Shown: positions 2,738 to 35,497 of the stretch, piece after piece
Numbering within the stretch: the stretch's first letter is position 1
How the letters are laid out: each line of letters starts with the position of its first letter
NCBI GenBank assembly: GCA_015956445.1
Contig: WIUZ02000001.1
Location: 3,100,001-3,164,000 of the forward strand
DNA: 64,000 bases
Source: Thelephora terrestris
Lineage: Eukaryota; Basidiomycota; Agaricomycetes; Thelephorales; Thelephoraceae
Direction: 5' to 3'
Program-made: the position numbers and the translations under genes
The notes under the pieces: generated by a model
The model's input: only the letters and a program-made list of their open reading frames with translations
Told to the model about the DNA's origin: nothing
Database searches by the model: none

Positions 2738-4057
2738 TATTCCAGGTTGACGTTGAGCTTTCGATCGAGCGACGTGTCGCGGTGCCTTGCGCTCTATTTC
2801 TGGAAGCAATTGATGTCCCCTTTCGTAACCGTGAGAACGTTGCTGTGACCGTGAGATGTCATATACAGCTCTCGGGGATTGCCGAATAAACCCTAATCCC
2901 TGAACACGAAAGACCAACATCGACAACGTCCCCGAGTAAACAGACAAGCCGGCCATGGTAGGACTCCGTTATCAGCTAATCGGTTGATTCTGGATGAAGG
3001 TCGCTCATGCTTTGCCGTTGTAGCCATCCCAAAAGACCTTCCGCACGAAGCGCACGCTCGCAAGGGCCGCTCGCCAGAACAGGTGAGACATAACATGGGG
3101 GAACTAGGGTGAGGACAAGGGGTTAATCGAGATGCGAACGTAGGCCAATCCCACAATGGTTCCGTCTTAAGTCGGACACCAAGATCCAAGTGCGTATCCA
3201 GAATTTATTGGCTTGTAAGTGTGTTGACGTCTATCTCGATGGTACATAGTACAATGCCAAGAGGCGTCACTGGAGGCGGACAAAACTCAATATCTAGAAG
3301 AACCGAATCGCGCTTCCCCCTTCTCGAGGCACTGGGACTTTCATTACCTATGGAGGGTTTGGCGAGGTTGCGATTTCGGAGGTCAATCGACGAGCAGTTT
3401 TTTTATCCATCGCACCCGTGTATTTTGCTATCGGCCACGGCCACTGCAATCCATGCCATCAATTTCTCTTGAGCATCGTACGCCGGTCACGTTGCGAGGG
3501 ATATAGATCCCGGTGGTGTGTGCAGGTTGGGACAGGGCACGACAGTTTAAGTTTGGTCGGTTGATGTCCCATTCTGAATCGCGTCCGGGAAATGTCAGCG
3601 GTGCCGTTCAAACCCTGTAGGAGCACCCCCGCAACTACCGCGACCCCAATTGAATCGCGGACAACGGTCGGGATAGGGACTTCTCCTGGGCCACATGAGA
3701 TTTCTGGTGATAAGGCGGAGGACCCGTGAGGGTGAGCGCTCCGCCAAATGCTGGTTAGCGACTACTGCGACCACTGTACTGGATCCTTCGTACCAACCGC
3801 GAGGACAAAGGAATTTGCGGGTTAACGTGCCAGGGAGGCCTGGGCTTCTTGATTAAAGACTCAGAAAATTGAAAGTCACCGTGCTGTAGCGCGCCAGCCC
3901 CGAGAAGTTACAAAGCCCTGGTGTAGTACACAGACCCGACCGGATAGCGGTATTGAATGTTGCCGTTTCATGACACGGCTTGCGATCCAGAGCCGTCTAC
4001 GAATCTTAGTCCACGCTCACCCTCTCACGTACCACGATCATCTTTGAGTTCAGAGAT
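2738..4057. other. intergenic, no supported gene
   Basis: This 1.3-kb stretch separates the divergent FKBP2 and Spc34 genes. Both strands contain only short open frames (under 100 codons) with no recognisable domain, plus scattered stops. It must hold both promoters. I see no tRNA-like fold or transposon ends. Confidence 0.5.
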
Positions 4058-33608: not shown

Positions 33609-35497
33609 TCACACCTTTCCATGGGAAGGGAGGTAGCTCTCTGAAGGAGTGGGGTGATGAACTGGTTTGTAACCCCCCTTGCCACCGACAGGCGTGCCCT
33701 TGAACCACACCCTTCTTCCGTCCTTTTCCCTGACATTAGCCCTTCTCCTCCTGCGGAAGCACAAGGCGGCGACCAAGATCAGGAGGACTCCGCCGACAGA
33801 CGCTCCGACGGCAATCAGAATCGTCTTGTTCTTATCGAGCCAGCCGGAGAAACCGCCGTTGCTCTTCTTGACGTCTGGTGGGCCGGAGGGAGTAAAGCTA
33901 TCCAAGAAGGTTTGGCCAGCTGTCGTGTCGATGCCCTTCAATCGGACTTGGACAAAGTCGTTGTGAGCCTCGACCATCTCTGTGGTCGGAAGGAGTTGGA
34001 CGTATGGATCGGCGACTTGGTCTGTCTTGCCGTCGACGAAGTCACCGAAATTGACGAGCATGTAGGCGTTTCGGACTGATGGGAATGTGGTTGAGCCGAG
34101 TGCATCATAGACAGAGGTGGAGAGTTGACTCACGGAAAGCCATTCCTAAAATTACGTCGTAGTTGGTGTCGGTGGTTGTCCTAGGTTGGAACTGCAGGGG
34201 CTACAGTCGGACAAAGGCGAGTGCACGAAAGCAAGGGAGATCACTGACCGAACCAATGCAAAAGTCGGTTCCATTCGCATTCCATGACAGGGAGGTGTCC
34301 AAAGGATGAATTGGGTATTGGACACCGCCGATGATAAAGGTAAGGTTGACTTCAGCATCACAGGGGATCGACCAAGTTTGACCGGCGCCGCGCCCAACGT
34401 CACCAAAAGTTGCGCCAGGGATCCTCCCGTAGATAGCGTCGGAAACCTGCCTCGGCACCTGCGGCAAACTGAAGCCTGTATCCAAGACGGCGTTTAAACG
34501 GGGCCCTCCATCGACAATCGAGGTGACATTGATTACTTGGCCGTCCGGACCGATGATGCCATTCTTGTCAATAAGGATTTGCCAATGCTGGTCAGCCTGA
34601 TTCCGGACAGAAACCTGAGTGACGGGGAGCTTTGGAAACTGTGTAACGTTTTCGAAGCCGGGAACAAGTTCACCAACGGTGATATCGCCGGGAAAGAGGT
34701 CCGTGGGATCATCGGACCTGCCAAGCAAAACGGTGAGGTAATTGGGCGTGGAAGTGTTTGAGAGGAAGATTCGGTCCAGAACTGCGTTTCCTGAGGAGTT
34801 TTTGAGGAGCTGTTTGATGTTGGAGCCACGGTTTGGACCTAGGCCGATTAGGCCACTCCCATCGTCTTTTCCTGTTGCAGAAACTGTTCGAGAATGCGAT
34901 TATCAGCAAGGGAAAGTGCATTCAGGTTGCAGGGGACGCACTGAAGGCTTGTTTGGGGACGTTGTAGCCAAGGAAGTCTAGATCTGCGAATTCGATGGGT
35001 CCTTCGGCGGATCCGACGGCGTATTGGATTCTGCTGTACTGTCCCGAGGGCAACGCCCCTGGAACATTCCCACCAACCCACAAGTCTGAACTAATGATCG
35101 GTAACACAATCAGTACGCATATAGAGAGGGCTTGGCACACAGTTGAGGACTAGATTCACCTTCCTACAGTCAGATGATAATAGGGTCAGCAACGACGGGA
35201 AACGAACGCTTCAGAGGCAGACTGACCAGTATCGACTAATACGCTGGAAAAGTTCTTCCCGCCCAGAGTGAGGGAGGTGTAATAACTGATATCGTCCGAG
35301 TTCGTAAGAATGCCAATTCCATTGTCGGTGTATATGTTAGATCTCTTCTCGACGGAGGACCCCCTCCGTTGGGCCACCGCGCGTGCGTCGTTCTCCTGGC
35401 GAGAAGATCTTCCGTGGATTTCTAGTCGAACGGCTCCCACCAGATCCAAACAGGACAAGAGGAGCGGGACGATTGATGACGGAAGGAGAAATTTCAT
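33609..35497 (-). CDS. A1-family aspartic protease with C-terminal membrane anchor
   Basis: A pepsin-type endopeptidase, probably at the cell surface or in the secretory pathway. Six exons: 35497-35227, 35163-35160, 35090-34942, 34883-34249, 34191-34134 and 34075-33609 (1584 bases, 527 residues, in frame). Signal peptide MKFLLPSSIVPLLLSCLDLVG, propeptide with a dibasic site (VEKRSN), first catalytic motif VLVDTGSSDLWVGG, GSGLIGLGP, second catalytic motif AVLDTGFSLPQV, then TNYDVILGMAFLRNAYM. Near the end, NKTILIAVGASVGGVLLILV is a transmembrane helix, followed by RRRRR and a short cytosolic tail. The layout resembles yapsin-like or CtsD-type anchored proteases. The second exon is only four bases; without it the active-site motif is lost. 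A longer N-terminal start at 35587 is possible but would displace the signal peptide. Confidence 0.93.
35160..35163 (-). other. 4-base microexon of the aspartic protease gene
   Basis: On the minus strand the sequence reads ...GACTGTAG/GAAG/GTGAATC.... The upstream exon ends ACT G, the microexon gives GA AG, and the next exon starts T TCA GAC, producing ACT GGA AGT TCA GAC, that is TGSSD of the catalytic motif. Flanking introns are 63 bases (35226-35164) and 69 bases (35159-35091), both GT-AG. Skipping it would shift the frame. Confidence 0.8.

Follow-up and report, generated by a model that had tools for sequence, protein, structure and literature searches.

Ultra-small exons are already known in fungi and plants, and the available text of four sources describes the systems closest to the one reported here. 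In the filamentous ascomycete Fusarium, a one-base exon of the P450 gene CYP621A, the first for a fungal gene according to its authors, was recognized when orthologues were compared, within an intron stretch roughly double the normal length, and is backed by 18 RNA reads (PMC12940212). P450 genes of the basidiomycete Phanerochaete chrysosporium combine short introns with very small exons, the shortest of 6 bp (PMC1184071), and Xlr2 of Trichoderma virens carries a functional microexon of 20 nucleotides whose inclusion depends on glucose (PMC11121469). Plant microexons of 1-15 bases, identified from RNA-seq, are conserved across species, often unannotated and flanked by ordinary introns (PMC8831610).

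Here we analyze a candidate four-base exon, GAAG, in an aspartic protease gene of the basidiomycete Thelephora terrestris, located in a 64-kb stretch of genomic DNA (the window; positions 3100001-3164000 of contig C1). Like the CYP621A exon, it lies in a filamentous fungus, falls in a conserved motif, is needed for the reading frame and is recognized by comparing orthologues across intronic sequence some two times longer than normal; like the plant microexons, it appears to be conserved across species and missed in annotation, and has ordinary flanking introns. The short introns and tiny exons recall P. chrysosporium, although the exons there do not lie at a protease motif. The Fusarium exon is confirmed by reads and that of T. 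virens responds to glucose; GAAG is predicted from sequence. In the titles and abstract beginnings of the open-licence literature, we found no report of a microexon in a fungal aspartic protease, and in the available text of PMC3990503, PMC4014442 and PMC8022950 the word microexon denotes an aligner setting only.

Results

A predicted A1 protease gene with a candidate microexon at its active site

The gene lies on the minus strand of the window (Table 1), and its product is predicted to be an aspartic protease of family A1 (pepsin-like) whose tail resembles a membrane anchor, the hydrophobic stretch and Arg residues of exon 6 being the putative anchor. Its Pfam Asp match scores 62.9 bits against a curated cut-off of 19.9 and covers residues 108-385 of a 530-residue version of the protein, with the first motif outside the match. 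Among solved structures, 6r61_A is the nearest in sequence; its DSGSSDLWVAG aligns with DTGSSDLWVGG. Both catalytic D[TS]G motifs are present: DTGSS, when the microexon is included, and DTGFS. At the second motif, Phe or Tyr follows DTG in 89 of the 90 pattern-matched homologues (30 of the 120 listed homologues were unmatched).

Table 1 Predicted features of the protease gene and of the competing single intron, in window coordinates
Feature	Coordinates	Strand	Description
Exon 1	35227..35497	-	271 bases, from ATG to GATACTG
Intron 1	35164..35226	-	63 bases, GTCAGT..TGTAG; CTGAC sites end 22 and 6 bases before the 3' end
Microexon GAAG	35160..35163	-	Would supply the rest of the Gly codon and most of the codon for the first Ser of DTGSS
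Intron 2	35091..35159	-	69 bases, GTGAAT..ATTAG; CTGAT ends 19 bases before the 3' end
Exon 3	34942..35090	-	149 bases; 5' start TTCAGACTTGTGG, opening TTCAGAC
Exon 4	34249..34883	-	635 bases; second catalytic motif DTGFS
Exon 5	34134..34191	-	58 bases; alternative acceptor 9 bases upstream (start 34200)
Exon 6	33609..34075	-	467 bases including the stop; hydrophobic stretch, then Arg residues
Competing single intron	35091..35222	-	132 bases, donor GTCTGC (35222); DTGHS; reproduces P0001

With GAAG included, the protein sequence reads VDTGSSDLWVGG. When the deposited model's acceptor is taken for intron 4, the six exons proposed in the initial annotation add up to 1584 bases in frame (271+4+149+635+58+467), or 527 residues. 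Two intron-4 acceptors lie 9 bases apart (34191-34200) and give 527 or 530 residues; the upstream one (1593 bases, 530 residues) was dropped because P0001, the deposited T. terrestris protein, and its relative P0002 (..IGSFQPR..) fit the downstream one. Save at the first motif and for a 3-residue difference at exon 5, the gene translation is that of P0001.

Joining GAT ACT G, GA AG and T TCA gives DTGSSDLW, and GAAG was verified to lie at 35163-35160, preceded by TAG and followed by GTGAAT, the two introns measuring 63 and 69 bases. If GAAG is skipped (35227 joined to 35090), the frame shifts and a stop follows as the 38th codon after DT. The claim that direct splicing destroys the frame is correct for this junction, but it overlooks an in-frame donor at 35222, four bases downstream of 35226, which gives DTGHSDLW. 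The best protein match, P0001 ('acid protease [Thelephora terrestris]'), has exactly this reading, and splicing from 35222 to 35091 (GATACTGGTCA joined to TTCAGAC) reproduces it letter for letter. The deposited model thus escapes the frameshift by means of one 132-base intron, and Ser becomes His.

Splice-site and chance tests

Between 35300 and 35040, 280 in-frame GT/GC-AG solutions were tested (252 with two introns, 28 with one). DTGSSDLW is obtained by a single two-intron solution, the GAAG model, and by none of the single-intron ones; as the sole solution among 280, GAAG is needed for DTGSSDLW, whereas the frame alone is also kept by the DTGHS path. With any dinucleotides allowed, the only single-intron joins giving DTGSSDLWVGG use TC-AT and CA-TT introns, and they were rejected as non-canonical.

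The predicted duplex with U1 is -5.0 kcal/mol for the donor of intron 1, -6.9 for that of intron 2 and -1.2 for the donor at 35222. Among 3,000 GTs sampled from the minus strand of the window, 16%, 5% and 77%, respectively, pair at least as strongly. However, weak donors are used in these genes (-1.4 for intron 3 of the same gene and -1.5 for one donor of the paralogue P0010), so that the value at 35222 does not by itself count that donor out.

The 136-base interval was also shuffled 100,000 times with its dinucleotides preserved and scored at three levels, namely AG/GN(AG or TC)/GT giving DTGSS with both introns of at least 45 bases, the same with YAG and GTR, and additionally CTNAY in both introns (slashes mark exon-intron junctions). 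These levels were passed by 109, 34 and 6 shuffles, and the real sequence, TAG/GAAG/GTGAAT with CTNAY in both introns, passes all three. It also passes a broader criterion (any exon of 1-31 bases, 1 mod 3, giving DTG[ST]), as do 227 of 20,000 shuffles. The bare pattern YAGGAAGGTGAAT has six matches in the genome against three for a reversed control; therefore, the pattern alone marks nothing.

Homologues and deposited models

A search with the 530-residue version, a query that already contained DTGSS, found 632 proteins, 120 of them listed. The first motif is readable in 118 of those listed, P0005 and P0015 being left aside, and DTG is followed by SS in 108, SA in eight, ST in one and HS in one. 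At the position of the P0001 His, 117 of these 118 homologues thus have Ser, the lone HS being P0001 itself.

The next proteins, P0002-P0005, are 70-83% identical to the query. Three of them (P0002, P0003 and P0004; 82, 83 and 77%) run uninterrupted on contigs of 1,848, 1,888 and 2,167 bases, read DTGSSDLW and are probably cDNA-derived. P0005, from T. ganbajun, departs from DTGS at the motif and reads VLIDTVHIDRALFPITSADLWVG. Its insert resembles both the open reading frame (ORF) P0145 before STDLW (ICIDRLPFPIISTDLW) and, in the same frame, the end of T. terrestris intron 2 (LPIISSDLW), and we therefore interpret it as intron retained in the model to maintain the reading frame; P0005 appears to hold translated intron sequence at its active site. 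Both P0001 and P0005 seem doubtful at the motif, and the microexon seems to have been missed in the models of two Thelephora species, as would be expected from the remark in the initial annotation that exons of this size are usually overlooked.

Read-through ORFs of relatives

A 122-residue query across the site retrieved 28 short proteins, apparently translations of unspliced DNA in which the predicted ORF continues into the intron. Exon 1 is held up to DTG in 26 of them, and two start downstream. The residue after DTG is Gln or Lys in 26/26, as G/GTCAGT or G/GTAAGT reads, and none of them thus encodes DTGSS contiguously. Provided that these 26 genomic relatives are representative, DTGSS in the mRNA would need bases from between two introns.

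The comparison with orthologues that had been proposed as a check supports the exon: RKVN, as AG/GAAG/GTGAAY reads, occurs in all 13 ORFs that extend more than 22 residues past DTG. Because the relatives are read as protein, the codons (AGG, AAG, GTG) are deduced rather than seen. The preceding residue is Cys in nine, Tyr in two, Arg in one and Ser in one; TGYAG/GAAG/GTGAAY reads C-R-K-V-N, and the T. terrestris counterpart is TGTAGGAAGGTGAAT. Leu-Thr, as the branch-like CTNACN reads, lies eight residues before RKVN in 8/13 and six before it in 1/13, Ala-Asp (as GCTGAC) takes that position in 2/13, and neither is found in 2/13. The other 13 of the 26 end before the RKVN position; two of them have GR as their last residues, in agreement with GGAAGGTGA read in another frame, and the remaining 11 carry no information on the microexon.

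In P0121 and P0122 the reading frame continues across intron 2 as far as SSDLW, and the deduced intron lengths are 67/71 and 70/62. No same-species pair of a probable cDNA and a genomic ORF was found among the relatives; the similarity between P0122 and P0003 is 97% across 36 exon 1 residues but 82% across 50 exon 3 residues. A scan of viral_contigs for the relatives' DNA gave two stretches that match a pattern, neither of which encodes a relative. Taken from these protein readings, the microexon appears to be conserved in relatives. Upstream of the motif, around window position 35240, T. terrestris and P0123-P0125 have one extra residue (NFSSVL or NFTSVL versus NFSVL).

Paralogues and a Lactarius-like outgroup

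We searched the genome (40.6 Mb, 60 contigs) for paralogues. P0010 (locus L036 of C2, minus strand) has a 10-base exon, ATACCGGAAG, at DTGSSDLW, flanked by introns of 51 and 58 bases. At least 51 solutions exist for its mapping; the 10 examined agree from a 232-base exon onward, differ only in spurious start pieces and all contain the 10-base exon. This exon lies in the same genome and the same catalytic motif as GAAG, and its downstream intron splits the same Ser codon in the same phase as window intron 2. It differs in that the upstream intron lies six bases further upstream and in that the deposited model contains it. The eight resolved P0010 introns measure 47-58 bases, next to which the 132-base intron of the deposited T. 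terrestris model is long.

Beside P0010, on the plus strand of the same locus (approximately 3376-3440), a second paralogue has a single GC-AG intron at ACA G/GC AGC, the position of window intron 1. Eight other A1 loci gave the motif, five of them, outside C2, with an intron in or bordering DTG..DLW. The introns of these five (L006, L007, L015, L009 and L011, at C9:479, C58, C23, C15 and C9:526, the last with several fitting acceptors) hit or border the DTGSSDLW codons at differing places. It is as if these codons were often hit by introns in A1 paralogues. The pattern used demanded Ser or Thr after DTG, and it can therefore place introns but says nothing on the residue itself; no match to it was obtained on C12 or C14. 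The A1-like paralogue L019 (C14) has DTASSD in place of DTGSSD.

A Lactarius-based query returned 15 ORFs, 14 of them with DTG, and Arg comes next in 14/14, as GGNAG/GC or GGNAG/GT reads. In nine of the 14, the frame continues to SSDLW across a single intron of 48-60 bases, at the position of window intron 2, and RKVN is absent from all nine. Several of the Lactarius-like ORFs (P0149-P0157 and P0163) read DTGRQ or DTGRR, which, with codons deduced from protein, would point to GC over GT donors for the older intron. A single intron, placed like the second one of Thelephora, seems to be present in Lactarius-like relatives, which suggests that the microexon probably arose from an intron gain four bases upstream. 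The simplest history is probably that of an older intron at AG/Y and a later gain in the Thelephora line, an order based on one outgroup search. Mobile introns of the introner type occur in a genome as several similar copies. At E values up to 1, neither intron 1 nor intron 2 had a genomic match other than itself, and an introner origin was rejected on this ground.

Discussion

It is highly probable that the T. terrestris A1 protease gene contains a GAAG exon between two short introns, that this exon rebuilds DTGSS and that the upstream intron was gained later. The homologues, U1 pairing, shuffles, 10-base exon of P0010 and read-through ORFs of relatives all support the four-base exon first proposed from the window itself. 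Pre-mRNA splicing would include GAAG between two ordinary short introns and so restore DTGSS at the first catalytic aspartate, while skipping of GAAG would lead to a frameshift and then a stop. The Thelephora line would have gained its second intron four bases upstream of the older one, which is kept alone in Lactarius-like relatives.

Alternatively, both forms could be made, a tandem donor giving an active DTGSS enzyme and an in-frame, probably inactive DTGHS enzyme as an active-site splice switch. Both paths are canonical and in frame, and a second GT is inherent in GTNAGT donors, so that relatives with such a donor would be expected to share it. However, the second donor is weak and the three probable cDNAs of close relatives read DTGSS only, and we regard the switch as unlikely. 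If true, it would be a by-product of intron gain into active-site codons.

Returning to the GAAG exon, the order in which its introns are removed deserves comment. A recursive splice site is a zero-length exon, with the donor regenerated at the junction itself; here, acceptor and donor are separated by four bases. Upstream of the second donor, the bases that pair with U1 are AAG, which is part of the microexon, and this donor would thus be independent of prior removal of intron 1; either order of removal seems possible. Full splice-site complexes are unlikely to occupy two introns so close at the same time, an argument made for plant microexons in the available text of PMC8831610. We infer from this that introns 1 and 2 would be removed one after the other. 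The same argument is what favors the suggestion in the initial annotation that a real microexon of this size may need recursive or coupled splicing, which concerns the mechanism only and is compatible with the main microexon reading. Nothing shows such a need, however, as each intron has its own donor, acceptor, CTNAY and ordinary length, and plain sequential removal of two short introns would suffice. We consider the special mechanism quite improbable.

It is very improbable that the deposited model is right, with one 132-base intron from 35222, no microexon and a DTGHS protease. That model is in frame, agrees with P0001 letter for letter and has a donor whose weakness is matched by the intron 3 donor and by one of P0010. 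However, His at this position occurs in one of the 118 readable listed homologues, which is P0001 itself, 77% of the 3,000 sampled minus-strand GTs pair with U1 at least as well as its donor, and its intron is long against the 47-58 bases of P0010. It also leaves unexplained AG/GAAG/GTGAAT with a branch-like site in each half, and the echo of AG/GAAG/GTGAAT in the 13/13 informative relatives. Finally, gene decay or a faulty assembly, either of which would make the motif a remnant, was considered since frame problems often have such causes; this reading found no support and is scarcely credible, as the frame is otherwise open for 527 residues, relatives are 70-83% identical (P0002-P0005) and the same read-through pattern recurs in their independent contigs.

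From a biological perspective, the GAAG exon would add one more basidiomycete case to the few known fungal exons below 10 bases, sited in the catalytic site itself. Its comparative record is unusually clear, with a history that can be read from one-intron relatives, paralogues arranged otherwise and Thelephora with two introns four bases apart. ORFs from unspliced DNA can test the case for a microexon without RNA, and a missed exon can put a wrong residue beside the catalytic aspartate in a deposited protease sequence. The gene would also be a natural substrate for studying how the spliceosome handles two introns four bases apart.
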